Shown: positions 3,907-32,755, counted from the first letter of the stretch. The stretch is 32,755 bases of DNA from a virus (IMGVR_UViG_3300047480_000154:1-32755); one strand, 5' to 3'. Made by a program: numbers and translations. The notes: a model not told the origin generated them from the letters alone.

Positions 3907-4281
3907 TTACTCCTTCTTTAAGAATGGTGCAAGCTCGGGTGGCTCCCAACCTAGTGGTTTAAGAACCTTGCCATCTTCGCGCTTTCGTACTTTGCCTGTC
4001 TCTCGATCAATCTTGGCAAAGTTTGTTTTCATAACTTCTTTCCAAGCACCGTCGCCGTCAAATCCTGCACTATGGATAGCACCAATAGTAACAACTAAGA
4101 TGTCAATCAATGCATCTAGTGTTTCTACTTCGTCGTGAGCCGCAATAGCTTCTGCAAGCTCACCTGATTCTTCTTCAATCAGTTTCAGATACATGTTAAA
4201 TTGATCTGCATTAAAGCCTTCAACGCTTTGATCGCAGGCCCTCATAAACTTTTCTTGATCGCGAAATGGATTAGTCATCAT
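3907..4281 (-). CDS. MazG-like nucleoside triphosphate pyrophosphohydrolase
   Basis: This 124-residue, all-alpha protein carries the MazG/PRA-PH metal-binding signature: EExxE at 37-41 (within IEEESGELAEAI) and ExxD at 53-56, followed by ALIDILVVTIGA. The family hydrolyses nucleoside triphosphates to monophosphate and pyrophosphate. Phage MazG proteins have been proposed to alter ppGpp or nucleotide pools during infection, and the substrate here cannot be read from sequence. The C-terminal part (KVRKREDGKVLKPLGWEPP) is a common tail in phage homologues. Its ATG overlaps the gp55 stop (ATGA), so it is the second gene of the sigma-70-driven leftward operon. Confidence 0.85.
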   Translation of the reverse strand: MMTNPFRDQEKFMRACDQSVEGFNADQFNMYLKLIEEESGELAEAIAAHDEVETLDALIDILVVTIGAIHSAGFDGDGAWKEVMKTNFAKIDRETGKVRKREDGKVLKPLGWEPPELAPFLKKE

Positions 4282-5285
4282 GCTTCCTCACTATCCTCTA
4301 AAATAATTTCAGTAACTTCGATGTCTGCATCGATATCAATGTCTGCTTCTAAATCAACATTGGCAGGTAATTCTTCACCTGGTTCAACAGCAGCCGCCGG
4401 ATCTTTAAGTGCATTATATCTTTCGATGCCCTCAAGGTGCGCCTGCTGGCTTTCCATCTGGCGTGTCCAGCTTGGCATTTGACCCGAGTCTTGTAGCATG
4501 TCATCACGGATATCACGTTGACGCTTTTCTACGTTTAGAACACGGGTAAAGGAGTTAGTAACTGCGGCAGTATAATAAGCAAACGGGTTTTGTGATTTGC
4601 CTTCGTCAAACTGTAATGCAATTTGTGTAAGCTGAATAAGTGCTTGCCCGCGCATTTCATCGACATAACTATAGCCACGCCAGTTGCTTCGCAAGCTGTA
4701 ACGTTCGCATAGCTTTAAGAACATTGCGCCTAAGCGATTTGTAATTTGTCCATGGGTCACACAAAACTCGCCTGTTTCTAAGTCGCCCTTCCAATGACTG
4801 CGAAGCACTTCGCGCCAAGTGCCATCTTCATTTTGAACAAAATGTTTAAATGGAGGAAAGTTTACTTTAGAGCGATGATCAGCAATACTCTTGGGATTAT
4901 TTTTACGTCCAGGCTCGAGAGGAATATGCTCAAACGTCATCATGCGAACAACAAGATCAGTTACTGGAATCTTTTTAGGATTAACTTCAAATTGATCTTG
5001 TTTTGGTTTAGTACTTGCTTTGCCCTTTGCGGCTTCCCATTCTGCAATGGCAGCCTGGTATGCTTGTTGTTGTAACCTAGCCGCGCGAGCTTCACGTGCT
5101 AAGTTGATAGCACCTTCGGGACAGGCTTTGGTTTTACGATTATGAAAGCTCTTTAATTCGGTTACAATGTAATCATACTGCTCGACATCTTTGCTTTCTT
5201 TCCAGCAATAGCTCATCTTACTTGCATGGATCGCCGCTAAAATATCTTTATTCTTTAGGTAAATGGTTGTTGTTTTTTCTGACAC
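4278..5285 (-). CDS. gp55: gp55, sigma factor for late transcription
   Basis: This is the phage sigma factor that binds host RNA polymerase and directs it to late promoters. The recognisable block at about residues 205-260 (DEMRGQALIQLTQIALQF, then NPFAYYTAAVTNSF from 233, then VEKRQRDI) matches the sigma region 2-like part of T4-type gp55. At 335 residues it is much longer than the T4 protein (about 185). The N-terminal part (about 1-200) is unassigned, and the C-terminus from about 295 is strongly acidic (repeated D-I-D-A-D). In T4 gp55 the C-terminus contacts the sliding clamp; the same role here is inference. The start is GTG at 5285-5283 with GGAG 7 bases upstream. It is the first gene of the leftward operon. 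Confidence 0.88.
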   Translation of the reverse strand: MSEKTTTIYLKNKDILAAIHASKMSYCWKESKDVEQYDYIVTELKSFHNRKTKACPEGAINLAREARAARLQQQAYQAAIAEWEAAKGKASTKPKQDQFEVNPKKIPVTDLVVRMMTFEHIPLEPGRKNNPKSIADHRSKVNFPPFKHFVQNEDGTWREVLRSHWKGDLETGEFCVTHGQITNRLGAMFLKLCERYSLRSNWRGYSYVDEMRGQALIQLTQIALQFDEGKSQNPFAYYTAAVTNSFTRVLNVEKRQRDIRDDMLQDSGQMPSWTRQMESQQAHLEGIERYNALKDPAAAVEPGEELPANVDLEADIDIDADIEVTEIILEDSEEA

Positions 5286-9053: not shown

Positions 9054-9061
9054 GGATAGAA

Positions 9062-11218
9062 ATGCAAGTAAACGACAAAGGCAGAGCAGGCGGAGGAACA
9101 GCGGCACTTGGTAGCAAGATGCATGGGGTGTTTCTTGGCAAAATAAAAGACAACATTGACCCTGATGGTCTTGGCCGATTGAGAGTATGGATTCCGCAAT
9201 TAAGTAACTCAGCGGAATCGAATAAGCAAGGTTGGTTTACGGTTCGTTATTGCCCGCCGTTTGCCGGAGCATCAAATACCAGCGAAGAATCACAAGCCAA
9301 AGATGCAACCAAATATGCACAAACAAATCAAAGCTATGGCATGTGGATGGTCCCACCGGACAAAAATGTACAGGTAGTTTGCAGTTTCCTTAATGGAGAG
9401 CTAAGTCAGGGTATTTGGTGGGCATGTATGCCGCATGACGGACATACGCATGCGATACCAGCAGTGGCGTCTGGTACAACTCACGATGGTGCAACTACAC
9501 CATTGGCCGAACGTAATCGTTATAATACAGCGGATCCGGATCCAGAAAAGCGTCCCAAGCATCCGCTTAATAATGTTATTAGACGACAAGGCCTTGAAAA
9601 AGACAAACGTCGTGGCCACATCAATGCTGGCCCTTTTAGAAACAAGTCAAAGCACACCGGATTAGCGTACGGAGTGTTAACACCAGGCCAGCATCAGTTT
9701 GTAATGGATGACGGTGAGGAATTTAAGAACGGTCAAATCAGATTACGTACTGCTTCGGGCAATACGTTTATCATGGACAACGATGAAGGCTTCATTTATT
9801 TTATTAACGCAACAGGCAACGCTTGGATGCAACTTGACAAAGAAGGCAACGTTGATGTTTATGCAGGCGGCTCTTTTAGTGTTAATGCTGAAGATAGCAT
9901 TAACCTTCGTGCTGGTAATAACATCAACATGGATGCAGGCGCAAACTTAAATGCAGTTGCGGCAAAGGATTGGAATTTAGAAGCATGTGAAGTGTTTAAC
10001 GCTACAGGTACAACTGGTATGAAGTTAAGCACAAGCCAGAACATGAACATTCTTGCTGACAGCCAGTTTAAAATGACTGGTCAGCGCATCGACTTAAATG
10101 GTCCTCCTGCAGAACGTGCAACATTGCCTACGCCAAACAGTTTGGTAACAAACTCGTCAGTCGGTAAAAGTGTTGCAGGCCGTGTTCCCGAAGCTGAGCC
10201 ATATGGCGGCCACGTTAGTAAGGGAGGTGAGCAGCCTACTGTCGTGCCCGGAGCCGCTCCAATTGATGATCCTGAGATTACACCAGCACCGGAAAGCTAC
10301 GAAGATAAACCTAGCCCAGAAACAACAGATGCTATTGCTTGCGTTCCAGAAGTAACACAAAGTAAATTAAGTGACGAAGGATTTAAGATCTTAAAAAGCC
10401 GAGAAGCATATTGCGGTATCATGTACAGTGACTATCAAGGTTACAGTATCGGATATGGTATCCGCTTAGATATTTTTGGTCCCGGCGGTGGCGGCAAAAT
10501 TGATGAAAATCTAAAGCAAGCATTGTTAGCTGGCCCAAGCGAACCAGAAGCACGTTTAGCCAGCCGTCAAATCATTGATCGTGAAAACACACCACGAATT
10601 ATGCGATCGCTAGAAAAAGCAAAAAGCGGAGCAGGCAAGCCAATTTGTATTACACAGTCGCAAATTGATGCATTGATTATGGCTTCGTACAGCAGTCCAG
10701 CAAGTGCAGATAAAATGGCACAGGCCTTGGTTCAAGCTGCCGCAGCCACAGCAGATGGAAAGCCTACAAACGAAGATATTGCCAAAATTTGGGCTAACTC
10801 TCCGTATAACAACAGTAGCAAAGTTCGCAACAGTGATGCAAAATATGCAATGACTGGCAAGCCAAATTCTGATACACGAGTAATGGAACCAGAGCAATTG
10901 CAAGCAGAAGGTATCAAGCGAGATTTGTCACGTTTAAAGAACAACAAAGTTCAACTTCCTGACACAGCAGGTTGGCGTACCCCTTATGGCAATGGCGGTC
11001 AAACCGGAACTAAAGTTGAAAATACTTACGGAAAACCAACCCCGCAACATTTGGCTCAATGGGAAAGAAGTTACTATCTAAACACTGGAAATGTGCCGTA
11101 TGGTAGCAACTTGACTGTTGAACAACTACGTGACAAGTACGGTTCTCCGCATACTGGAGGTAATAATCCTCCAGGTAAAGCAACAGCCGGGACAGCATCC
11201 AACAGCAATGTAGGATAA
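9062..11218 (+). CDS. gp5: gp5-like baseplate hub spike with lysozyme-like domain
   Basis: This 718-residue spike protein pierces the cell envelope under the tail tube. The N-terminal OB-fold (about 15-140) carries GVFLGKIKDNIDPDGLGRLR and the VWIPQ ending seen in gp5/VgrG. A beta-helix with octad-like repeats follows at about 215-350 (GNVDVYAGGSFSVNAEDSIN and similar). After a proline-rich linker (about 370-430) comes a GH24 lysozyme-like segment: E448, D457 and S462 within REAYCGIMYSD and GYSIGYG, corresponding to T4 lysozyme E11, D20 and T26, with Ser for Thr and one residue less in the spacing. In T4 gp5 the lysozyme lies before the beta-helix, so the order is changed here. The C-terminal 100 residues are Gly/Asn-rich and unassigned. 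A GGA ribosome site lies 6 bases before the ATG. Confidence 0.85.
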   Translation: MQVNDKGRAGGGTAALGSKMHGVFLGKIKDNIDPDGLGRLRVWIPQLSNSAESNKQGWFTVRYCPPFAGASNTSEESQAKDATKYAQTNQSYGMWMVPPDKNVQVVCSFLNGELSQGIWWACMPHDGHTHAIPAVASGTTHDGATTPLAERNRYNTADPDPEKRPKHPLNNVIRRQGLEKDKRRGHINAGPFRNKSKHTGLAYGVLTPGQHQFVMDDGEEFKNGQIRLRTASGNTFIMDNDEGFIYFINATGNAWMQLDKEGNVDVYAGGSFSVNAEDSINLRAGNNINMDAGANLNAVAAKDWNLEACEVFNATGTTGMKLSTSQNMNILADSQFKMTGQRIDLNGPPAERATLPTPNSLVTNSSVGKSVAGRVPEAEPYGGHVSKGGEQPTVVPGAAPIDDPEITPAPESYEDKPSPETTDAIACVPEVTQSKLSDEGFKILKSREAYCGIMYSDYQGYSIGYGIRLDIFGPGGGGKIDENLKQALLAGPSEPEARLASRQIIDRENTPRIMRSLEKAKSGAGKPICITQSQIDALIMASYSSPASADKMAQALVQAAAATADGKPTNEDIAKIWANSPYNNSSKVRNSDAKYAMTGKPNSDTRVMEPEQLQAEGIKRDLSRLKNNKVQLPDTAGWRTPYGNGGQTGTKVENTYGKPTPQHLAQWERSYYLNTGNVPYGSNLTVEQLRDKYGSPHTGGNNPPGKATAGTASNSNVG

Positions 11219-11238
11219 GATAAAACCCAGCTTAATAA

Positions 11239-11266
11239 AACTTGGTAAATAGGTGTATGCCAAGTT
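11239..11266. repeat. 7-bp inverted repeat around the gp25 promoter and start codon
   Basis: AACTTGG (11239-11245) and CCAAGTT (11260-11266) are perfect inverted copies. The 14-base loop holds exactly TAAATAGGTGTATG, that is, the late element plus the gp25 start codon. In read-through RNA from upstream, this hairpin could present or hide the start. Confidence 0.55.
11244..11251 (+). promoter_or_regulatory. Late promoter element GGTAAATA upstream of gp25
   Basis: TGGTAAATAGG is nearly the same as the element at 5361 (GGTAAATAGG). The A of the gp25 ATG lies 6 bases after the end of TAAATA, about where T4 late transcripts start, so the mRNA may be leaderless. It lies in the 38-base gap between gp5 and gp25. 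Confidence 0.6.
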
Positions 11267-11637
11267 ACACATCAAAATTCCGCGGGTATAGCTCAATTGG
11301 GACTAGTTTTTTAAATCCAGTCCTGTACGATCTTGCCCTTGCGAAACAAGACTTACTAAACCACTTTAATACTCGCAAAGGCGAGCGTATTATGATGCCA
11401 GAATTTGGCAGCATTGTATGGGATATGCTTTTCGAGCCATTAGATGATTACACTATCAATTTAATCGACGCTGATGTGCGTTCGATTATCAAATCAGATC
11501 CACGTTGGTTGTTGCAAAGTGTAGCCATCAGCGAAGGCCCAAATGCACTTAACATTGAAGTTACAGTGACATATTTGCCCACAGACGAATCAGTACTATT
11601 ACCAATGGTATACGACAAAGGAACGAACACATTATGA
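11257..11637 (+). CDS. gp25: gp25, baseplate wedge protein
   Basis: This 126-residue wedge protein resembles T4 gp25 (132 residues) and the gp25-like sheath-initiator proteins of other contractile systems. The core FNTRKGERIMMPEFGSIVWD (about 38-57) and LFEPLDD are the conserved gp25 signature, with R-x-G-E-R and P-x-F-G. The start is placed at the ATG at 11257 (MPSYTSK). An in-frame TTG at 11242 would put the late promoter inside the gene. No ribosome site at proper distance exists (AGGTG ends 1 base before the ATG), in line with a leaderless message. The stop overlaps the gp6 start (ATGA). Confidence 0.92.
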   Translation: MPSYTSKFRGYSSIGTSFLNPVLYDLALAKQDLLNHFNTRKGERIMMPEFGSIVWDMLFEPLDDYTINLIDADVRSIIKSDPRWLLQSVAISEGPNALNIEVTVTYLPTDESVLLPMVYDKGTNTL

Positions 11638-14600
11638 GCCAGACACGACGCCTAGGACAGTTAAACGCCGCTGAAAGCTGGCTTAACAATTACCGTTATC
11701 TAGTAAACGCAGATTTTAAAGCGTATGACTTTGAAAGTCTACGTACTGCATTGTTAGATCACATTCAACTTAACTATCCAGAAGATTTTAACGACTTTAT
11801 CAATTCAAGCGAGTATGTTGCGCTTGTAGACTTGATGGCGTTCATGGGACAAAACTTGTCCTTCCGTGCAGATTTAAACTTGCGCGAAACGTTCTTGGAA
11901 ACAGCAGAAGTTCGCGGCAACGTATTAAGTATTGCTCGTCAGTTGGGCTACAAGCCGTTCCGTAACGGTGCAGCCAATGGCTTTTTAAAAATTACTTCTG
12001 TAACAACTACACAAGAATTATATGACAGCAAAGGTACAAACCTGGCTGGTAAAACAATCGTGTGGGCTGACCCGTTGAACTTAGACTTCAATGAGCAGTT
12101 TTCATTGATTTTAAATCAGGCACTAAACAAATCAAACCCAATTGGACGTCCAGTTAGTTCAATTTCTGCCAATGGCACTACACGACAAATTTACGAACTT
12201 GATCAACCAGACACAAGAACAATGGTTGAATCATTTTCGTTGACTGCAAGAAATAATAACAGCTATTCTTGTGAGCTAGTTCCTGTAACAATTGATACAA
12301 CTACAGAGCTTGCAAAAGAAAATACACCAAATCCGTATGGTCGTCAGACTGTGCTGTTTAACAATGATGGTACTGGCTTTGGCTCTGGTAGCAACGGCTG
12401 GTTCTTTATGTTCAAGCAAGGAACATTGAAGTTTGAAGACTTTATATTAGACACGCGAGTTGAAAACCGTGTAATCGATTTACAAGGCAATAACATTAAC
12501 GAAACTGACATTTGGGTTCAAAGCATTGACTCACAAGGACAAATTTTAGAGCAGTGGACTCCTGTACCTAACACAAACAATAAGAACATTGTATTCAATG
12601 CAGTAGCAAAAGACGTACGAAAAGTATACGAAGTTATTACTCGTGAAAACGATTCAGTATCTCTAAAATTTGGCGACGACATTTTCGCTGACATTCCTAC
12701 TGGTAACATTCGTGTATGGTATCGAGAAAGTGCAAACGAAACATTATCAATCTCTCCTAACGATGTAGCAGGTTTGGAAATGGCATTGCGTTTTGTTGAT
12801 GGTACATCTACAGAACAAGACTTGACAATTACACTTGAATTGTCTACTCCAGCATCAAGTACTGCTGGCGAAACACTAGAACAAATTAAAAATCGTGCAA
12901 GTCGCACAAGTGCAAGTCAGGACCGCATGATCACTGCTTCTGACTACAACATCTATCCAGAAGGTAAAGTAAGCGGCGTTGATAAAATCAAAGCAGTTAA
13001 CAGAACACATGCTGGTCAAAGTGTATATGCAGACTTGTCTGATCCAACTGGCACATACCGTCCTGTTATTACATTTGCAGACGATGGTTACATCTACGAA
13101 ACTGAAGTAGTTACATCTACTACAAAAGATTCTTTATCAGGACCGCAAGAAGTATTGTCTTGGGTAGAAAACAGTTTATTGAACAGACACCTGCACCAGT
13201 TATACTACAAAAAGTATACTCCCATTGCTCCAGATTCTGGCGTTAATGTCAAGTGGGTAACAGTAAGTTCTGGTAACGCAACTACCACAGGCCACTTTTC
13301 AATTGTGACAAATAATGCACCGCTACGTATTGGCCGTGGTAGCCCAGACATCAAATATAGAACCATTGGCAAGAACAGTTTGGTAAAAACCACTGGCGGC
13401 AAGTGGAGCCGTGTGCTAGATGTATATCGCGAAGGCTTGGGCGTAAGTGATAATGATGGCAACAACACTGGCTTACGTGCCAATGGCCAAGGATCTGTGT
13501 TTTTGAATTCTATTTTAACATCCACAAGTGTTGAAGCTTGGTTCCCATCATTACGTACAATTTTTACTCCAACAGAGCAACGTGAGATTCTTGCTGAGAT
13601 TCGTGCGGCACGTAGCTTTGGTTTGAAGTATGTAAACACAGCAACTCAACCAGACCGTTGGAAAATTATTCCAGTGGATGCAGTTGTAACAACAGGTGAC
13701 TTAGTTCCTCCAACAGAACAAAACACAAACTCTGGTGCAAGCTGGTTAGTGCGTTTAGAGTATGACACAACCACTGGCACCTGGACATTGTACACACGTA
13801 ACGACCAAACAGTGTTTGGCAGTGTTGACCAATTGAAATTCCATAATCAACGTTTTGGCCAATCAATTGACTCGTCATCAAAGCGTGTGCTAAAAGATAC
13901 TGTTAAGTTTTTAAAACAACACGGATTAGAGTCTGAGTTGTCGCTTGATGTCAACGACTACTTTAAACTAGATGATGGCCGCTTTGATTCGACCCGTGTA
14001 ATGTTATTATTACCTGGCCTAAATGAAAACTTAGCACCAAATGATCCAGAAGTAATTAGCAAGCTAATCACAGATACTGTGCAATTTGAACGTGTGCCAT
14101 TTGTTGATACTAAGGGACAATACACATTAAAGCCAAGCAATACCGCCGGCGTGCTATTACCTGGTAGAAAAGATTTAAAAGTACAAAGTACACACGTTCC
14201 GTTACGAGATAATAGAGTTGACGCATCAACTACAAACATTGTTGACATGTATGTGTTAACATCAAACTACAACGATGCTTATCGTGCTTGGGTCAACGCT
14301 GGCGGCAATGAGGCAACAAAGCCATTGCCATTAACTTCATATAGTTTAGAAAAGCTAATGAGTTCTATTATTCCTTATAAGAGTATTAGTGATAGCATTA
14401 TTTTCCATCCTGTCAACTATAAAGTTATCTTTGGTAAGAACGCTGACAGCAGAAATCAAGTTAAGATTCGTATTACCAAGAGTGATACTACACGAGTAAG
14501 CGATGCTGAAATTCGCAGTCGTGTTATTGCGGCAATCAACCAATACTTCTCGGTTGATAATTGGGACTTTGGCGAAACGTTTTATTTTACTGACATGGCT

Positions 14601-24188: not shown

Positions 24189-25262
24189 ATGGCATACGAA
24201 GTAAACAAAGCAAACGGTGAAGTGTTAGTTAACCTAATTGACGGGGAAATTGACAACACATCAACCAGTTTAAATTTATTAGGCAAGAACTATCTTGGCT
24301 ACGGCGAGCTGATCGCTGAAAACTTTGTTCATTTGCTAGAAAACTTTGCAAGTAGCATTGAACCAATTAGCCCAGTTACTGGCCAACAATGGTTTGATAC
24401 AGGCGAACGCAGATTAAAGCTAAACGCAGATAATTCCAACTGGAAAACTATTGCGTTCTTAGCCGCACAAAATTCAGTACCAGCAGTTGGCACATCAATC
24501 CGCGGCGACTTTTGGTACGACACAGCAAACAATGCTATTAAGATTTACACAGCTGATCCAGCATTGCCAGGTACAAACGGTAACGGCTGGATGAACGTTG
24601 GTGCGTTCCAAGGCAATCGAGAAACTGCAACAGGCATGGCGTTCTTGGATCTATTAGATACTAACAGTAGCCTACACAAAGTTGTTGGATTGTATGCAAT
24701 GGGTGTGTGCGTTATGATTATTAGTTCTGATGCCGACTTTACTATTGCTAACTCACATGCTGTACCAGGCTTTGACGAGATTGGCAAAGGTATTAACATG
24801 AATACCAGTGGCCGCGATAGTACTGGCTTTGATACAAACGCATTTAAGTTGCGTGGTATTTCTGTAGAAGCTGAATTTGCTGACGTTGCTGAAATCTACA
24901 CAGCTGATGCAAGCTACGAGCCAGGAACATTAGTTGCATTGGGCGGTACTGCCGAAGTAACACAAACAACAGGATCAGCTGATACAAACATTTTTGGTAT
25001 TGTTTCAACTCGCCCAGCTTACTTGATGAACGCAAAGCAAAAGCGTGAAAAGAACGCATTACCAATTGCAGTTGCTGGCCGTATTCCAGTTAAAGTTACT
25101 GGTACAGTCAATCGCGGTGATCGTTTAGTGTCAAGTGCTATTCCAGGAGTTGCACGAGTTGCCACTCAAGAAGATCCTGCATGGAGCATTATTGGCCGTA
25201 GCTTGGGACAGCACAGCGGAGAAGGCATCGGCAAAGTCGAAGCTACAGTCGGAGCACGATAA
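24189..25262 (+). CDS. Tail fibre-like virion protein
   Basis: This 357-residue protein resembles tail-fibre-type proteins of T4-like marine phages. The N-terminal module has LLGKNYLGYGELIAENFVHL (about 29-48), LLENFASS, and ISPVTGQQWFDTGERRLK (about 60-77). This module is repeated in long fibres of cyanophages and occurs once here. The C-terminal module (about 225-357) has EFADVAEIYTADASYEPGTL, then GIVSTRPAYLMN, PIAVAGRIPVKVTG and NRGDRLVSS. It is a beta domain often seen at the end of phage fibres. A host-binding or connector role is likely but not shown. It has a good ribosome site. Its stop overlaps the next start (TAATG). Confidence 0.75.
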   Translation: MAYEVNKANGEVLVNLIDGEIDNTSTSLNLLGKNYLGYGELIAENFVHLLENFASSIEPISPVTGQQWFDTGERRLKLNADNSNWKTIAFLAAQNSVPAVGTSIRGDFWYDTANNAIKIYTADPALPGTNGNGWMNVGAFQGNRETATGMAFLDLLDTNSSLHKVVGLYAMGVCVMIISSDADFTIANSHAVPGFDEIGKGINMNTSGRDSTGFDTNAFKLRGISVEAEFADVAEIYTADASYEPGTLVALGGTAEVTQTTGSADTNIFGIVSTRPAYLMNAKQKREKNALPIAVAGRIPVKVTGTVNRGDRLVSSAIPGVARVATQEDPAWSIIGRSLGQHSGEGIGKVEATVGAR

Positions 25263-26305
25263 TGGCTATTCAGCGTAAAAAAATTACCGCTGAAGACCTA
25301 AACAAATTGGCATCCGATGTCAATGAATTGTTTGGCGATACCCACGCAGGTGAAGGCCCATCTACTGACCCACAGGTTCAAGATGATATTCGTTGGGGTT
25401 GGGGCGGCGAAAATGTTCAATACGTACAGCCAAAACAAAAGCTAACCGCGGCTTTTACAAACGAGTTAGTTAATCGCATTAACTTGAGCACATATAGAAC
25501 CAACAGTACAGACCAAGAACTTGTTATTGTTTCCCAAGGTGAAAAAGTAACAGCAGAATTTTTTAATACTGCGGCAAGCCTACTCAATTCTGCACGAAAT
25601 TCACGCAACGAAGTTGACCCAGCTTTAACTACACTATCAACGATTCGAACAGTTGTAAGCAATGGCGCTACCTGGAGACACCAATTAGAAAACGTAGTCG
25701 AACTTGACTTTGAAGGGTACGAAAGTGCTCGTCACTTTTTCAACGCAGGCGGCGATATTCGTTTGGCATTTTCAATTGCTGAAGGTTATAACGCCGGCTA
25801 CCACACCTGGCGCGGCATTTTTACAGACCAAGGCACGCTAAGACTAAACGTTGAAACAATGTCTAGCTTGAACAACCGTGGTATCAGCCAGGATGTTGGA
25901 TTTGCTGAACTAGTTCTAGGCGAGCAACTACTATACACCAGTCCATCAGGCGGCGGTGGCGAGTATGGTGGCTATGGAGGCTATGGTGGCTATGGAGGCT
26001 ATGGTGGCTATGGAGGCTATGGTGGCTATGGAGGCTATGGTGGCTATGGAGGCTATGGTGGCTATGGAGGCTATGGTGGTTATGGTGGCTACGCTTCAAG
26101 CAGAGTAAAGATCTATGGCAACATTGAAAACAACCGTTTGCGCCTACGCACTTTACTTGACCACGCTGGTTTAGGTACTAAAGTAACAGGTACAATTACA
26201 ATGGCTGTGTCAGTTTCTCAGCCATCAACAGTAACAGAAAATGGGGTAACGTTGGACCTTCCAACCCCTATTATTTCAGTAACCACACCTTGGCAAGAAA
26301 TCTAA
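25262..26305 (+). CDS. Virion protein with a (Tyr-Gly-Gly)14 repeat
   Basis: This 347-residue protein starts directly on the stop of the fibre gene. The N-terminal third is helical (KKITAEDLNKLASDVNELFG, ... LTAAFTNELVNRINLSTYRT). A beta block, GYESARHFFNAGGDIRLAFS (about 156-175) with TDQGTLRLNVETM, matches a structural-protein family I know from marine T4-like phages. At about 235-277 comes an unbroken run of 14 Tyr-Gly-Gly units. A C-terminal beta domain (SSRVKIYGNIENNRLRLRTL and on) closes the protein, so the repeat is an insert between two folded domains, probably a surface loop or flexible linker. It is likely a tail or adhesin component; the function is unknown. Confidence 0.75.
   Translation: MAIQRKKITAEDLNKLASDVNELFGDTHAGEGPSTDPQVQDDIRWGWGGENVQYVQPKQKLTAAFTNELVNRINLSTYRTNSTDQELVIVSQGEKVTAEFFNTAASLLNSARNSRNEVDPALTTLSTIRTVVSNGATWRHQLENVVELDFEGYESARHFFNAGGDIRLAFSIAEGYNAGYHTWRGIFTDQGTLRLNVETMSSLNNRGISQDVGFAELVLGEQLLYTSPSGGGGEYGGYGGYGGYGGYGGYGGYGGYGGYGGYGGYGGYGGYGGYGGYASSRVKIYGNIENNRLRLRTLLDHAGLGTKVTGTITMAVSVSQPSTVTENGVTLDLPTPIISVTTPWQEI
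25964..26089 (+). repeat. In-frame tandem repeat: 9-bp units, 18-bp period, coding (Tyr-Gly-Gly)14
   Basis: Fourteen units of TATGGTGGC or TATGGAGGC stand head to tail. The first twelve alternate strictly between GGT and GGA as middle codon, giving six near-perfect 18-bp copies (25964-26071). The last two both use GGT, and one ends in GGT instead of GGC. Such regularity points to recent expansion by slippage or unequal recombination; changes by 9 or 18 bases keep the frame. A final TAC (26090) closes the tract. Confidence 0.95.
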
Positions 26306-26322: not shown

Positions 26323-26348
26323 TGTACGTTGGTAAATAACAACGTACA
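26323..26348. repeat. 9-bp perfect inverted repeat around a late promoter element
   Basis: TGTACGTTG (26323-26331) and CAACGTACA (26340-26348) flank the 8-base loop GTAAATAA, which contains the TAAATA element. In read-through RNA it would form a strong 9-bp hairpin. No T-tract follows, so it is not a standard terminator. Confidence 0.8.
26331..26338 (+). promoter_or_regulatory. Late promoter element GGTAAATA in the loop of an inverted repeat
   Basis: TTGGTAAATAAC shares TTGGTAAATA with the gp25 element. It lies in the 61-base gap before the gene at 26367 and would give a leader of about 23 bases with a GGAA at 26359-26362. Confidence 0.55.
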
Positions 26349-26366: not shown

Positions 26367-26711
26367 ATGGATACACGCCTAAATGATGCATTGGCCTTTG
26401 CCAACTATAGACTAACGCTACAAGTTCAGCGTCAAAATATCGAAGCACGAGTAAATGCGGCTTTGATCGTGTCTTACCAAAATGCAATTTTCAAATCAAC
26501 CCAAACATTGATTACGTTTGTTGGACTTAGAGCCATGCGATCAGACAAGTTGTTGGTTGAAGATAACAGCGGCAACGTTATCCATATTGAAAATCCAAAT
26601 GAGTTCCTGACAGAGTTGCTAACAGCGTATGATGCTGCCATGGAGCTAAAGCAACAAGAATTACAAAAATTAAAGTCAGCACGTAGTACTGCTAAAATTG
26701 TAGGGCTGTAA
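26367..26711 (+). CDS. Conserved small T4-like phage protein of unknown function
   Basis: This 114-residue, mostly helical protein starts MDTRLNDALAFANYRLTLQV and ends with a helix, LKQQELQKLKSARSTAKIVG. The arrangement is an N-terminal helix with A-L-x-x-A-N-Y, a middle with VVxDxxGNxIxI-like strands (LLVEDNSGNVIHIENPNEF), and a C-terminal K-L-K-x-x-R-S. It resembles a small protein that in marine T4-like phages also lies just after the fibre genes. No function is known to me. It has its own late element, 28 bases upstream, and is followed one base later by a glycosyltransferase-like gene. Confidence 0.6.
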   Translation: MDTRLNDALAFANYRLTLQVQRQNIEARVNAALIVSYQNAIFKSTQTLITFVGLRAMRSDKLLVEDNSGNVIHIENPNEFLTELLTAYDAAMELKQQELQKLKSARSTAKIVGL

Positions 26712-26712
26712 T

Positions 26713-27591
26713 ATGAGCACCAAGGGCTTTATGATGTTCGCTTACAACAACGAACAGTTGGACTACACTCAGTTGGCCCTTGTTGCGGCGTATGCATGTA
26801 AAAAGTACATGCCTGATATCCCAGTTGTGCTCGTAACCAATCAAGCAAGTTTGGAGCAATGTAAAAATACACACGGCCAAGCAATTATGAATGCTGCCTG
26901 GGACGACATTATCCTAACCAATCCCGAATACGAACGTAATATGCGCTTACATCACGACGGTGCATATCACAGCTTCAACGCACAATTTACAAACACAAAC
27001 AAGCACGACATTTACAATCTAAGTCCATTTGATGAAACTATTTTAATTGACACTGATTACCTATGTGGCAATGACAACTTGTCAAAACTATTTGGTAGCC
27101 AGTATGATGTTGCAATGTATAGAGATGCTCGTAACTTGCAAATGCAAGAGCCATATACTACAGAACGCTGGTTGCACTATGCTGGTATTCGCATGTGGTG
27201 GAGTACTGTAGTTTATTGGCGTAAGAGCGAAGAAGCAGAACACTTCTTTAATGTATGGACCGCAGTTAAAAAGAACTGGGAATACTATCGCTTCTTATAC
27301 AAGTTTCCAGGTACATTGTACCGTACTGACTACTCTGCTAGTATAGCCGCGCACATGGTCAACGGCTGGCAAGATGGTGGCTTCATTGGAGAGATTCCAA
27401 ATTATATGCGCTACCAAGACCAGCGTGATGACATTGTAGAAGTTAAGGGTCCTAACCATTGGGTAATGTTAAGCAACTTGCCTGAAGAATGGAAAAATAT
27501 TGTAGTTGAAGTTCGCGGGGAAGATGTTCACATGATGAATAAGAAAAGTATTCTTCGTAACTACGAAAAGATCATGGAAGAACTAGCATGA
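26713..27591 (+). CDS. Glycosyltransferase-like protein (GT-A fold, GT8-like)
   Basis: The 292-residue protein looks like a nucleotide-sugar transferase. The N-terminal half reads as a Rossmann-like alternation: FMMFAYNNEQLDY, then LVAAYACKKYMPDIPVVLVT (about 22-41). A DTD metal-binding motif is at 113-115 in ETILIDTDYLCGND. Later SPFDETI and GGFIGEIPNYMRY lie where acceptor-site residues usually are, and HWVMLSNLPEEW follows. The enzyme would transfer a sugar to an unknown acceptor, for example a virion protein, DNA base or host glycan. It lies one base after a late small gene and its stop overlaps the next start (ATGA). Confidence 0.7.
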   Translation: MSTKGFMMFAYNNEQLDYTQLALVAAYACKKYMPDIPVVLVTNQASLEQCKNTHGQAIMNAAWDDIILTNPEYERNMRLHHDGAYHSFNAQFTNTNKHDIYNLSPFDETILIDTDYLCGNDNLSKLFGSQYDVAMYRDARNLQMQEPYTTERWLHYAGIRMWWSTVVYWRKSEEAEHFFNVWTAVKKNWEYYRFLYKFPGTLYRTDYSASIAAHMVNGWQDGGFIGEIPNYMRYQDQRDDIVEVKGPNHWVMLSNLPEEWKNIVVEVRGEDVHMMNKKSILRNYEKIMEELA

Positions 27592-28286
27592 CACTACACA
27601 TTATTACGCCACAGGATTACGATGACCATGCTAAAATTACATCAATGGATGCAAAGTTTGTCAATGCCTCTGTTGAAATTAACATTGTCAATGTAGAAAA
27701 AGATCCATATAGTCAGATTAAGCAACTTGCTACTCTTGACTTAAAAGCCGGAGACATTATTTGTCTAGCTGGAACATGCACACGTCAATCAACTGTAGCA
27801 GTTGCTGAACTAGCTGCCGCAAAGAAAATAAATCTCATGCCCGGAACAGGTACAGATCATCGCGGAGTCCCAATCCAGCCACACAAGATAAATGCACGTG
27901 CCGCAATTGAGAAAAATGATATTACAGCTTGGCCCTATTTAATGGTCATTGGCGATCCTGAGTTAGCTAAAAAGAGTTTTGAGATCGTACCTGATTTAGA
28001 TAGCACACTATACTGGCCTAACTATGTACCAGAACCTGATCAAGTACGCATTGAGCATTTGCTTGCTGTAGTAGCCTCAACCGGATTATGGGAAACTCCT
28101 GAATGGTTTAAAATTGTTGATTTGTCTGTGCGAGACTTAGAGCTTGCTCCGGTTATGTATGCAAGTCATATGTGGCATGATTGGATTGCTTTCTATCCTG
28201 CTAACGGAAATTTTAAACTTGAAAATCATTCACAGCTACATCCAGTTTGGTTAGCTGGTAGCACTAAGCCATTGGAATATTGGTAA
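27588..28286 (+). CDS. Unknown protein in the post-fibre cassette
   Basis: I do not recognise this 232-residue protein. The N-terminal half looks like an alpha/beta fold: LHIITPQDYDDH, VEINIVNVEKDPYSQI, and GDIICLAGTCTRQSTVAVAE (about 55-74). The latter could be a small-molecule-binding loop. The C-terminal part is rich in tryptophan (WPYL, YWPNYVPEP, LWETPEWF, HMWHDWIAF). The aromatic content would suit a sugar-related role. It is coupled on both sides (ATGA overlap before it, two-base gap after it), so it probably works with the neighbouring glycosyltransferase-like genes. No membrane segment or signal peptide was seen. Confidence 0.55.
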   Translation: MTLHIITPQDYDDHAKITSMDAKFVNASVEINIVNVEKDPYSQIKQLATLDLKAGDIICLAGTCTRQSTVAVAELAAAKKINLMPGTGTDHRGVPIQPHKINARAAIEKNDITAWPYLMVIGDPELAKKSFEIVPDLDSTLYWPNYVPEPDQVRIEHLLAVVASTGLWETPEWFKIVDLSVRDLELAPVMYASHMWHDWIAFYPANGNFKLENHSQLHPVWLAGSTKPLEYW

Positions 28287-28288
28287 TC

Positions 28289-29263
28289 ATGGCAGAGTTA
28301 AAGTTTGAAGTACGCCGACGAGAAAAGAAACGAGCAGAGTTTTGGTGCGTCAATTACGACGAGCACACAGGCAAGATAAAATCAATTGAGCCTGGTGATC
28401 GTCAAGTTGCTGGTGTGCTTATAGTTAACTATGCCCGTGTTAAGAAAATTCTTGCAGGTGAAAGCAATCAAAACGATTACAGAGTATCCCTCAATGAGAA
28501 TCTTGGCGTACTTGACTTAGTAGACATAAGACGTCCGCTTGAGTATAAAAAGAAACAAGTGTACCGTGGATGGTTATCTGCGGCAGAATCAGAAAGCTAC
28601 GCACCAGCTTCGTTACGTGCGACACTTTTTGCAGACACTGGGCACATTCGATTTGAAGCAAGTCGAGCCTGGACCACAAGAGTAAAAGATGGCTTAGATA
28701 GAAACACAATGTCTGATAGTATTCCGTTTTTTATTAGCGATGCACAAGATCCGCACAACCTATTTGGATATGATTCAATTAACTTAGCTGAAGTTATTGA
28801 ACGTGGATTTTGGGAAAAGCGCCTATGGGCATTTATGGATCATGCCATTATACAAAAAATATTGTATCATGGACAAGAAGTTCGCATCAATATGCAACCA
28901 GTCGCAGATAGCTTTAACTTTGTACGAGCCCAACAGCACTCCGAGTTCTCTGAAATCATTGACGAACGTACAATTCTTAGTAGGACAGGTCCCGGAAAGC
29001 ATCTTAGCGTATATTCTAAGAATGGTTCACTGTGGGTACAAAGTCATTACACAAGGGGCTGTGCAATTGATCAGATAACTGGTAATTTGTCAGTAGCAGT
29101 ATTATCCCAACCTGACCCTGACTTCTTTGTAGCCTGGGCTGAACTACCTGCACTTATGCTACGACAAGAACATCCGTTTGAATTGATTTCAAATTGGCCA
29201 GACCATGTGGTCCCAAGTTTGTTATATAAAGCTAACAACATAGATATCGGAGTACTCCAATGA
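28289..29263 (+). CDS. Unknown protein in the post-fibre cassette
   Basis: I do not recognise this 324-residue protein. The N-terminus is strongly charged (MAELKFEVRRREKKRAEFWC), then comes VNYDEHTGKIKSIEPGDRQV, which reads as a beta-hairpin. A repeated beta style (RATLFADTGHIRFEASRAW, KHLSVYSKNGSLWVQSHY) looks like a structural rather than an enzyme fold. The ATG at 28289 is chosen; an in-frame TTG at 28280 would overlap the previous gene. Its stop overlaps the next start (ATGA). A virion protein or an accessory protein for the adjacent DAD-motif proteins is possible. Confidence 0.55.
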   Translation: MAELKFEVRRREKKRAEFWCVNYDEHTGKIKSIEPGDRQVAGVLIVNYARVKKILAGESNQNDYRVSLNENLGVLDLVDIRRPLEYKKKQVYRGWLSAAESESYAPASLRATLFADTGHIRFEASRAWTTRVKDGLDRNTMSDSIPFFISDAQDPHNLFGYDSINLAEVIERGFWEKRLWAFMDHAIIQKILYHGQEVRINMQPVADSFNFVRAQQHSEFSEIIDERTILSRTGPGKHLSVYSKNGSLWVQSHYTRGCAIDQITGNLSVAVLSQPDPDFFVAWAELPALMLRQEHPFELISNWPDHVVPSLLYKANNIDIGVLQ

Positions 29264-30231
29264 AAACCCCAATTACAGAATTTGACGTAGTGTTTATCAG
29301 CTACGATGAACCAAATGCAGATGAGAATTATGCAGACTTGCTAGAAAAGTGCCCGTGGGCCAAACGCAGTCATGGCGTGTATGGTAGCGATGCTTGCCAT
29401 AAAGCGGCTGCAAAGTTAGCTGAAACAGAACGCTTTATTACAATCGACGCCGATAACAAAGTTCGTCCAGACTTCTTTGAGATGGAGCTAGACTTAACTA
29501 AGTTTGATCGCAGTGACGTACTAAGCTGGAGCGGCAAAAACGTTATCAACGGACTTGTATATGGCAATGGCGGTGTCAAACTTTGGCCCAAAAAAGTTGT
29601 AGAACAAATGCGAACACACGAAGCAGTTGATGGCGGCGCTGGCGCTGTTGATTTTTGTTGGGACATTCACTATCATCAGTTAAACAACATCTACTCTGAT
29701 GTGTATAACAATTCTACTCCATATCAAGCATATCGTGCAGGCTTTCGCGAAGGTGTTAAGTTGGCACTACACGACGGCAAGCCGATGGACTGGAGACAAA
29801 TTGCCGCCCGCAATAACTTTAAAAATCATCGCAGACTGTTAGTTTGGATGAGTGCCGGCCAAGACGTGCAAAATGGATTGTGGGCCATGTACGGTGCTCG
29901 ATTAGGTTGCTATTTGACCAACTTACGTCGAGACTGGGACTACAAATTGGTAGCGGATTTTGAATGGCACAATCAATACTGGAGCGAAACAGTAATGCCA
30001 ATGTTTGCTGGTAACGAAGAAACATGTCCAGTGTCAAAGTACTCGTGGAGTAAAACAGCACTTATGGCTGAAACTGTAAAGTTGGGTAAACTACTACGCC
30101 AAGAATTAAAATTGGATATTGCTGAACTTGATGAAGCTGGTAGCAGATTCTTTAAGGCAAGTTTCTTTAATCCACATCGTTTAGCACCTCATATCAAAGA
30201 AAGTGATGTTGAACAGTTTATCGCTGAGTAA
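29260..30231 (+). CDS. Glycosyltransferase-like DAD-motif protein, paralogue 1 of 3
   Basis: This is the first of three tandem related proteins (323 residues). The N-terminal strand FDVVFISYDEPNADEN (about 8-23) is followed by DACHKAAAKLAE and then FITIDADNKVRPDFF, whose DAD (63-65) resembles the D-x-D metal and nucleotide-sugar site of GT-A glycosyltransferases. Further shared blocks are NGLVYGNGGVKLWP (about 98-111), AVDFCWD and YRAGFREGVKLAL. Similar proteins occur in marine T4-like phages, mostly annotated as hypothetical. A sugar-transfer role is inference from the DAD motif and its context. Overlaps at both ends (ATGA, TAATG) show tight coupling. Confidence 0.65.
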   Translation: MKTPITEFDVVFISYDEPNADENYADLLEKCPWAKRSHGVYGSDACHKAAAKLAETERFITIDADNKVRPDFFEMELDLTKFDRSDVLSWSGKNVINGLVYGNGGVKLWPKKVVEQMRTHEAVDGGAGAVDFCWDIHYHQLNNIYSDVYNNSTPYQAYRAGFREGVKLALHDGKPMDWRQIAARNNFKNHRRLLVWMSAGQDVQNGLWAMYGARLGCYLTNLRRDWDYKLVADFEWHNQYWSETVMPMFAGNEETCPVSKYSWSKTALMAETVKLGKLLRQELKLDIAELDEAGSRFFKASFFNPHRLAPHIKESDVEQFIAE

Positions 30232-31106
30232 TGTTAGATATCTTTTTCATCTCAATGGGCGAAGAAGGCAGCGAAGCCAATTGGCAACGCTTGCTTCAAC
30301 TTGCGCCTACAGCAAAGCGTGTTGATAACGTAAAGGGCATCTACGAAGTACATCGTGCTTGTGCTCAGTTAAGCACTACTAAAAACTTTTATGTAGTTGA
30401 TGCAGACGCATGGGTACTCGACGGATTTAAATTTCATTGGGAACCCGACGCTAAAACATTACACTGGGGAGTTCCTGAAACAGAATGTGTTTTGGTTTGG
30501 CCTAGTCGCAACCCAGTTAACGGGTTAGAGTATGGATATGGCGGCATTAAAATGTTCCCTCAGGCTCCATTTTTAGAAGATAAACAATGGCGCATTGACC
30601 TGTCTACTACTGTTGGTCGCGCAACAGTTAGCAAAGAACAAGTCAGTTGCGAAACACGATTTAATGCTACTCCTGAATCGGCTTGGATTGGTGCATTCCG
30701 TGAATGTGCTAAACTTGCATCATTGAGTATGATTAAAAGTCGTGTACGCAAAGCAGTTGCAACTAAAAATGAAGAATTAAGCAAGCTAGCAGAATATGTC
30801 GCAGAGCAAATAGATTGGGCCCCAGAGAAACGTGCCACGTATCGTCGAGTGCAAAGTGTACTGATTGCTGACCGTTATAGCCACGAATCAAACATTTACT
30901 CTTACTGGGCAGAAATTGAAGAATGTAGTCGTCGCAGATTACATTGGGCCACAGTGGGCTGGGAAGCGCACAATGGAAAATACAGTGTACTAGGAGCACA
31001 AGCCGGATCTCGGTTTGGACTACAGTACAGCGATGATTTGACAATGCTTGATAAAATTAACAACTGGGACTGGTTGCGAGGAGAATTTAAAAATGTCAAT
31101 GTTTAA
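30231..31106 (+). CDS. Glycosyltransferase-like DAD-motif protein, diverged paralogue 2 of 3
   Basis: This 291-residue protein is related to its two neighbours but diverged. The start LDIFFISMGEEGSEANWQRL replaces the D-E-P-N-A motif with G-E-E-G-S-E-A. YVVDADAWVLDGF keeps the DAD (57-59). NGLEYGYGGIKMFP keeps the glycine block with Tyr for Asn. The V-D-F-C-W-D block of the other two is missing (SCETRFNATPESAWIGAFRE stands there). The copy may have changed its substrate or become a partner subunit. It starts on the previous stop (TAATG) and its last 14 bases overlap the third copy. Confidence 0.6.
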   Translation: MLDIFFISMGEEGSEANWQRLLQLAPTAKRVDNVKGIYEVHRACAQLSTTKNFYVVDADAWVLDGFKFHWEPDAKTLHWGVPETECVLVWPSRNPVNGLEYGYGGIKMFPQAPFLEDKQWRIDLSTTVGRATVSKEQVSCETRFNATPESAWIGAFRECAKLASLSMIKSRVRKAVATKNEELSKLAEYVAEQIDWAPEKRATYRRVQSVLIADRYSHESNIYSYWAEIEECSRRRLHWATVGWEAHNGKYSVLGAQAGSRFGLQYSDDLTMLDKINNWDWLRGEFKNVNV

Positions 31107-32064
31107 CGTTAAGCCAAAGAAACAAAATACAAGAACTACCTTTGCAGATATTCCTGTTGTATTTTTAAGTTTTGACGAACCAAATGCTGAGGCACACTGG
31201 GACCTATTGCAACAAGTAGTTCCGCATAAAAGAATTGCTCGTGTGCATGGTGTAAAAGGATTTGACGCTTGCCACAAAGCCGCAGCCGACGCATTTCCAA
31301 TGAGCGATTATGTTATTACAGTTGATGCTGACAATCAAGTTGATCCAAAATTCTTTACTAAGTCTTTGCCCCAAAACATGAACGGGCAAGTTAGTTACAC
31401 CTGGGGTGGTCGTCAAGTCACAAACGGTCTTATGTATGGTAATGGTGGCCTAAAGATGTGGAGTACTGAACACTTGTCTAATATGAAGAGTCACGAGCTT
31501 GCTGATGAAGAACGTGATGCAGTAGACTTTTGCTGGGACTTTCAACGCTACAAAGAACTGCCAGGATGCTGGAGCAACGTACACACAAATGGTAGCCCTT
31601 ATCAAGCATTTCGTGTAGGCTTCCGCGAAGGTGTAAAGCTATCAATGGAGCAAGGCCGTTTACTTGCGTTTGACGAGTGGCCAACTACAATGCATGCCGC
31701 AAACTATCAACGATTGCTAACATGGATGACCATTGGCCGAGATATCGAACACGGTATTTGGAGCGTATATGGCACCAGACTTGCTGTTAAAATGTTGCAG
31801 TACGATAACTTTAACTTTGTAAACATCCGTGATTACGATTGGTTCAAAGATTTCTTTGAGCAACATTGTAATGCTGATCCAGTAAAGGCTGCTAAAGCAC
31901 TTGGAAAGAATATAAGCGATGGGTTAGGCTGGATACTTCCAGACTTTGACGCAGAGCAAAGTGCATTTATTAAGCAAACACAATTGCACCCTGACAAGCC
32001 ATTGACATATGAAGATGTTGAATGGCGTACAAATTTAAGTTTATATGGATGGTTCCGTGGATAA
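31093..32064 (+). CDS. Glycosyltransferase-like DAD-motif protein, paralogue 3 of 3
   Basis: This 323-residue protein is closer to paralogue 1 than to 2. It has VVFLSFDEPNAEAHW (about 22-36), FDACHKAAADAF, VITVDADNQVDPKFF with DAD at 78-80, NGLMYGNGGLKMW, AVDFCWDFQRY and FRVGFREGVKLSM. A basic N-terminal extension of about 18 residues (MSMFNVKPKKQNTRTTF) is absent from the other copies. The start at 31093 is set by AGGAG at 31079-31083, 9 bases upstream; it overlaps the previous gene by 14 bases. An ATG at 31099 is the alternative. The longer frame from 31048 would lack a ribosome site. Confidence 0.65.
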   Translation: MSMFNVKPKKQNTRTTFADIPVVFLSFDEPNAEAHWDLLQQVVPHKRIARVHGVKGFDACHKAAADAFPMSDYVITVDADNQVDPKFFTKSLPQNMNGQVSYTWGGRQVTNGLMYGNGGLKMWSTEHLSNMKSHELADEERDAVDFCWDFQRYKELPGCWSNVHTNGSPYQAFRVGFREGVKLSMEQGRLLAFDEWPTTMHAANYQRLLTWMTIGRDIEHGIWSVYGTRLAVKMLQYDNFNFVNIRDYDWFKDFFEQHCNADPVKAAKALGKNISDGLGWILPDFDAEQSAFIKQTQLHPDKPLTYEDVEWRTNLSLYGWFRG

Positions 32065-32755
32065 AAATGCAGAATTAAGATCAGCGTTAATGTACTTTAC
32101 TGACGAAGCAATTGGATACCGTCATAGTATTCATTTCCTTCATCGCTGGATTGAAACTGGAGAACAAGCTGAGTTAGAAGGCCTGATCCTCGAAGTCGGC
32201 CGCGAAAACTTTGTTGATTTACAACCATTGCTTGATACCGTTAAAAATCCGTCTAATACAGCAGGTATCGCAACACTGTATAATTTTATTAAGATACACG
32301 GAGTATGTTGCACAGGCGATCAATACACTCGAATACTGCCACCACCACAAGTTGATGACACAGTATTGCATAATATAGAAGGCAACGCCTGGGCCATGCA
32401 TAATTGGATTGAAGCAAATACCCATGATGGCATTAGTCCGTATTACTACATTGGGCGGGCGTACGGATTATTACAAGAGGCATCAAGTAACTTTTATAAA
32501 ATTTTTGAATTGCTTGAACTTATGTTTGGCAAGGACGTTACATTATTCTCGGCAGTACAAGATGATGATATTAAGTTGTTAGGTAAGCTATTGAGTAATT
32601 ATTATCCTAGTTGCAGTAAACATATTAATAGGTTAGCACATTCTGTTGCCGAGCATCCAGATTTAAATTGGAAAGATGCACTAAGCAGAAACCAAATTAA
32701 AAGCAAACTGTGGTTAATTGAACAAATGGATGCGCTTAAAATATTACCAAAACCT
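32045..32755 (+). CDS. Partial gene at the right edge, unknown (possible methyltransferase N-terminal part)
   Basis: The frame is open from an ATG at 32045 to the window end (237 codons, no stop). A GTG at 32057 is an alternative start; both overlap the previous gene. The visible part is helical (YRHSIHFLHRWIETGEQAEL, ... YYYIGRAYGLLQEASSNFYK). The last residues QIKSKLWLIEQMDAL, followed by K-P, resemble the segment that in some phage proteins leads into a Rossmann-type SAM methyltransferase domain; that domain would lie beyond the edge. The methyltransferase idea is weak inference. The gene continues the coupled cassette. Confidence 0.6.
   Translation, partial: MDGSVDKNAELRSALMYFTDEAIGYRHSIHFLHRWIETGEQAELEGLILEVGRENFVDLQPLLDTVKNPSNTAGIATLYNFIKIHGVCCTGDQYTRILPPPQVDDTVLHNIEGNAWAMHNWIEANTHDGISPYYYIGRAYGLLQEASSNFYKIFELLELMFGKDVTLFSAVQDDDIKLLGKLLSNYYPSCSKHINRLAHSVAEHPDLNWKDALSRNQIKSKLWLIEQMDALKILPKP

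Follow-up and report, generated by a model that had tools for sequence, protein, structure and literature searches.

Glycosyltransferase loci linked to tail-fibre genes are already known in phages. In pelagimyophages, fibre-linked islands that are rich in GT8 genes and also carry radical SAM genes have been read as modifiers of the host O-chain (PMC7029224), and the moraphages, uncultured large phages of aquatic habitats, have four core orthologous groups of glycosyltransferases (PMC12619734). The cassette described here has in common with the pelagimyophage HRC a T4-type myophage background and the presence of glycosyltransferases (GT8 being the most common in the HRC) and radical SAM genes beside the fibres, whereas the HRC is hypervariable and non-syntenic and our cassette keeps its order over deep divergence (41 loci). 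Its likeness to the moraphages is by description only and covers uncultured aquatic large phages with several glycosyltransferases. What is new is the fixed gene order, a slot holding a maintained pseudo-glycosyltransferase, an orphan beta-sandwich partner (B) and a cis-acting hairpin of its own, the last three of which are features seen here and not described for the HRC (PMC7029224). With these and a candidate acceptor, the cassette becomes a defined and widespread module, and a handful of purified proteins would suffice to test the old question of what the fibre-adjacent glycosyltransferases of phages modify.

The window, that is, the whole stretch analysed, is a 32.8-kb virus fragment whose end cuts the last cassette gene. 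Upstream of the cassette it carries a T4-type late sigma factor, SbcCD-like genes, a baseplate hub and a baseplate wedge; the wedge matches Agrobacterium phage Atu_ph07, Sinorhizobium phage Phosso, and RaK2-like and PA5oct-like phages (~31–37% identity), and together these genes assign the window to a jumbo myophage with no close relative in culture. A cytidylyltransferase-like gene (PF01467; 5372-6034) heads the late region. The initial annotation had proposed a tight run of glycan-modifying genes directly behind the fibre genes, and such a run is present: seven genes on one strand (GTa, W, B, GTb, GTc, GTd and H), spaced from the preceding stop codon by +1, −4, +2, −4, −1, −14 and −20 bases, with the starts of B and GTd corrected to ATG 28289 and ATG 31093, respectively. 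The true start of the unit lies ahead of GTa, at a hairpin/promoter-like element (26323-26348) followed by g26367 (26367..26711, + strand), a gene for a protein of 114 aa that always lies between fibre and GTa. For this run, Pfam and PHROGs searches with the window proteins gave no usable match, and g26367 had no family match; none of the cassette proteins has a membrane segment (top 19-residue hydropathy 1.26).

At least four of the genes had been credited with D-x-D motifs, and four do carry them: GTa (26713..27591, +; DTD at residues 113–115), GTb (29260..30231, +; DAD, 63–65), GTc (30231..31106, +; DAD, 57–59) and GTd (31093..32064, +; DAD, 78–80). The motif alone proves nothing here, because composition predicts about one chance copy per protein (0.7–1.9), and W and B hold such copies. 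The signal above chance is instead the conservation of both aspartates among aligned relatives (18 of 18 for GTa, 18 of 18 for GTb, 35 of 35 for GTc and 37 of 37 for GTd) along with homology to known glycosyltransferases. The motif reads DTD or DVD in all 18 relatives of GTa and DAD or DGD in all 18 of GTb, and D63 and D65 are invariant in a joint alignment of GTb, GTc and GTd. On sequence comparison we identify all four as predicted soluble glycosyltransferase homologues.

Their relationships to described families are of two kinds. The GTa profile alone had no direct match in the PDB, but it matches GTa-prime, a paralogue adjoining GTa in far relatives, at 99.5%, and the GTa-prime profile in turn matches glycogenin-1 (E 3.6e-6) over the N-terminal donor-binding half, D-x-D included. 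GTa is thus probably GT8-like by way of its paralogue; the acceptor tyrosine and self-glucosylation are traits of glycogenin, to which GTa is likened by sequence via GTa-prime only. In comparison, GTb, GTc and GTd are, by their profiles, one GT2-like family: 23 of 37 GTd orthologues match Pfam Glycos_transf_2 (PF00535; best E 2.1e-6), the window's own GTd falling below the curated cut-off, and GTb and GTc reach PF00535 only indirectly, through profile matches of GTb to GTd (100%, E 4e-72) and of GTc to GTb (99.6%, E 2e-24). In 8 relatives whose entire records were searched, copies of these three genes are confined to the cassette block. Nothing credible came from searching the PDB with profiles of GTa, of GTd, of H and of the joint GT2 set.

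The initial annotation treated the tryptophan-rich protein W (27588..28286, +) as a new kind of part, a view that gives way to that of a degenerate GT8-type glycosyltransferase once its fold, its position and intermediate sequences are considered. Its AlphaFold model (pLDDT 85.9, pTM 0.85) has PDB fold matches that, among those listed, are mostly GT-A glycosyltransferases or sugar-nucleotide transferases, including WrtF, LgtC, UGGT and glycogenin (best E 5e-4, TM 0.4–0.5), and its viral matches include GT8 and nucleotide-diphospho-sugar transferases. In far relatives the same slot is occupied by GTa-prime, usually with an intact D-x-D (LDADM, VDYDT), while the motif site reads LDEN in the sister clade, or ADS in one member (L129), and A-G-x in 27 of 27 sequences of the window clade; because of this replacement W was not filed as an active glycosyltransferase. 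A direct profile comparison of GTa with W failed until far GTa-prime sequences were added. W together with its sister sequences then matched GTa-prime at 89% (E 2e-6), and the window-clade W alone at a suggestive 11.6% (E 0.0026; controls E 0.06–0.5). Pairwise dN/dS of 0.024–0.094 indicates strong purifying selection. Given this fold, a slot shared with intact paralogues and this selection, W is best read, from sequence and predicted structure, as a maintained pseudo-glycosyltransferase, a GT-A-fold paralogue that would have lost its D-x-D.

Protein B (28289..29263, +; 324 aa), by contrast, keeps the standing first given to it as a beta-rich cassette part, being a conserved, cassette-specific occupant of its slot without a known relative. 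Its predicted model has tandem beta-sandwich domains at moderate confidence (pLDDT 78, pTM 0.47), a fold search gave weak Ig/FN3-like matches only, and profile comparison shows it to be homologous to the ~200-aa protein that far relatives encode at this slot (98%, E 2e-13). Only the N-terminal 237 aa of H lie in the window (32045..32755, +). The complete gene, encoding 392 aa, is found in L002 (6243-7421), a locus that shares 99.7% identity with the window across 6.95 kb. H has a conserved pattern (VGGWVG...DID...VEHF) and neither a Pfam match nor a credible one in the PDB profile search. To judge by sequence, the half of H that lies outside the window, towards its C-terminus, may be a Rossmann methyltransferase.

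Three viral scans yielded 172 loci, the window's own stretch included. The expectation that the six genes first noticed would occur together is borne out by this survey of gene neighbourhoods: the order from GTa to H is kept in 41 of 41 non-redundant loci spanning these genes, a count that includes sister-clade loci in which the first profile missed W although the gene is in place. Independent occurrence in relatives was not found for the core, but a few loci (L243-L247) hold GTc and H with no GTa, and the gene most often absent is GTd, missing from L011, L012, L073 and the sister clade. The latter (GTa 44% identical) otherwise has the same order, with a Methyltransf_24 gene between GTb and GTc in L129. 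A second tier of 43 loci, which counts the sister clade among its members, comes from environmental viruses and, in part, from bacterial MAG contigs. Here GTa is followed by W or GTa-prime, in most cases by a gene of B type, and then by GTb; the loci that were inspected lie behind fibre genes of the same kind and a gene like g26367. Several second-tier loci have radical SAM genes ahead of H, and in far relatives twitch-type and other radical SAM enzymes are inserted between GTc and H. GTa and GTb stay 73–93% identical while W, B, GTc and H drop to ~40–60% in more distant members, a pattern suggesting that two core enzymes keep one task while their partners vary. Searches of cultured phages by tblastn were negative for GTa, GTb, GTc and GTd, as they were for the two far versions tested. 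With collinear genes and glycosyltransferase homology, the proposal that the late fibre region contains a cassette for glycan-type modification is supported.

The 61-bp gap before g26367 contains a cassette-specific element (26323..26348, +) formed by a 9-bp inverted repeat, TGTACGTTG / CAACGTACA, around a late-promoter-like loop, GTAAATAA (26332-26339, +). TAAATAAC is unchanged in 14 of 14 aligned relatives, and in the alignment 89% of the pair cells of the stem are paired, 12 of them compensatory. A covariance model found one significant match per genome, ahead of the cassette, in 6 of 8 records; most of these matches are training-set sequences, so that the result is informative mainly as to single copy. 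A search of Rfam returned nothing. A search for the late-promoter consensus TATAAATA found no match, TAAATA being found instead: the plus strand of the window has six copies of [CG]TAAATA and the minus strand none, and four of the six fall in the plus-strand gaps of more than 20 bp, which total 254 bp (P 5e-8). One of these four is in the loop of the inverted repeat. The likely reader of these sites is the late sigma factor (4278..5285, −; phrog_12791, E 2e-87). This bias of strand and gap, with the conserved late-promoter-like element upstream, makes late transcription of the cassette likely, as had been supposed from its position. The hairpin could act as a promoter, an RNA processing site or the target of a regulator.

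We consider that the cassette is best explained as a protein-glycosylation module of a jumbo myophage, transcribed late and as one unit, with a virion protein as acceptor, and we give this reading an even chance of being right. Host sugar nucleotides would be the donors; the core transfers would fall to GTa and GTb, which are the best conserved; and W, no longer transferring sugar, may serve GTa as partner, scaffold or acceptor clamp. GTc, GTd and H might extend or methylate the glycan, variably between phages, and B might hold the acceptor or form part of it. As acceptor we would expect a virion protein synthesized together with the enzymes, most probably one of the tail-fibre group encoded just upstream. 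Several observations speak against such a module: the desaturase, Asn-synthase-like and ThyX genes further downstream are not obvious protein-glycosylation genes, the bacterial homologues lie among polysaccharide-type or radical SAM genes, and the block has no counterpart in cultured phages, while fibre-linked GT8 genes elsewhere have been read as O-chain modifiers.

If that last reading applied here, the enzymes would build or alter the LPS O-chain or capsule late in infection, blocking superinfection or the re-adsorption of progeny, as has been suggested for the GT8-rich fibre-linked islands of pelagimyophages (PMC7029224). Several glycosyltransferases in a row could indeed build an oligosaccharide, and related GTb genes in Roseibium adjoin a GT4-like gene. 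However, the lack of membrane segments in the cassette proteins, where Gtr-type O-antigen modification has a membrane glycosyltransferase/flippase, fits poorly with remodelling of the host surface, as does the failure to find a sugar-nucleotide pyrophosphorylase (PF00483) in 8 relatives. Host O-chains vary, whereas gene order and the GTa and GTb sequences (73–93% identity) are strongly conserved, and late timing leaves little time for such remodelling, which we regard as rather unlikely.

The extent of the unit bears on another possibility. In L002 the unit runs past H, nearly without gaps, into at least six more genes (7418-11709): Asp/Asn-hydroxylase-like, GNAT-like (assigned by eye), Asn-synthase-type PP-loop, a second GNAT-like, fatty acid desaturase and ThyX. 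Because hydroxylase, PP-loop and desaturase genes follow in the transcript, we keep alive the idea that these, the GNAT-like products, H and the glycosyltransferases make a small molecule or peptide, a diffusible or virion-borne glycosylated (lipo)metabolite. The radical SAM enzymes that far relatives insert between GTc and H agree with this, as do Bdellovibrionota chromosomes that mix homologues of GTb, GTc and H with radical SAM and PP-loop genes. But the downstream genes of L129 have no fixed place relative to the glycosyltransferase block, phage and bacterial PP-loop proteins share a short motif region only, and it is the link to the fibres that is constant; such a pathway appears improbable. 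Weakest is the proposal that the enzymes glycosylate modified DNA bases as T4 AGT/BGT do, which is a common service of phage glycosyltransferases and one in which several of them could build a branched modification, but which we think very improbable given a cassette position and promoter of late/structural type and no thymidylate-synthase-family hydroxymethylase (PF00303, the phage dCMP hydroxymethylase of T4-type glucosylation) in 8 relatives, whose records, those of 285 kb and 244 kb included, are possibly all fragments.

For a protein-glycosylation module acting on the virion, the candidate acceptor is a tail-fibre-region protein (25262..26305, +) with a (GGY)14 loop, encoded by a DNA repeat at 25964-26091. 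Of the fibres in the window and sister clades, 46 of 51 have [GY] runs, as opposed to one of 37 far fibres, an association that is confounded with phylogeny. Run length varies from 10 to 49 residues among close relatives, and fibres of the two clades without a run still hold a short G/Y-rich loop, so the (GGY)14 loop may possibly be a length-variable adhesin loop. We rejected GGY repeats as the mark of every cassette, since the repeat is almost always missing from far relatives, although these carry the cassette. Tyrosine is the residue that glycogenin glucosylates, and it is for this reason, together with the distribution of the runs, that we hypothesize the (GGY)14 protein to be the acceptor. 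The specific proposal that GTa and its dead paralogue W would O-glycosylate tyrosines of the (GGY)n loop of this fibre protein, whose gene lies two genes upstream, giving a glycosylated adhesin tunable by repeat length, is a good deal more speculative and improbable; if true, it would add a new element, a pseudo-glycosyltransferase partner, to the glycosylation of phage virions.

The slot behind the fibres also argues for a fibre-region protein as target, as it is refilled with different modification enzymes in other phages. In Atu_ph07 (L290, NC_042013.1, 8909-15647) and Phosso (L292, PV764938.1, 17999-25742) it lies behind homologous baseplate and fibre genes and holds several radical SAM enzymes along with a cupin/JmjC protein and one with the C-terminal motif CHSSCHASCH (gp170/289); none of these genes is homologous to the glycosyltransferase cassette, and PA5oct has no such modification set in the corresponding slot. 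Taking the lack of membrane segments, the fibre linkage and this slot together, we favour a virion target over the host surface or DNA. The Atu_ph07/Phosso set itself resembles a RiPP-like system for peptide modification, which would act on a virion protein.

Homologues of GTb, GTc and H also occur singly or in pairs in bacteria. Bdellovibrionota and Neisseriaceae assemblies (L271, L272, L273, L261) contain GTb-GTc or GTb-H pairs, with radical SAM genes near the pair in L271 and L272 and a PP-loop gene in L271, and single GTb- or GTc-type genes are found in Roseibium, Tateyamaria, Cribrihabitans and Photorhabdus genomes (L262-L270, L285-L287).
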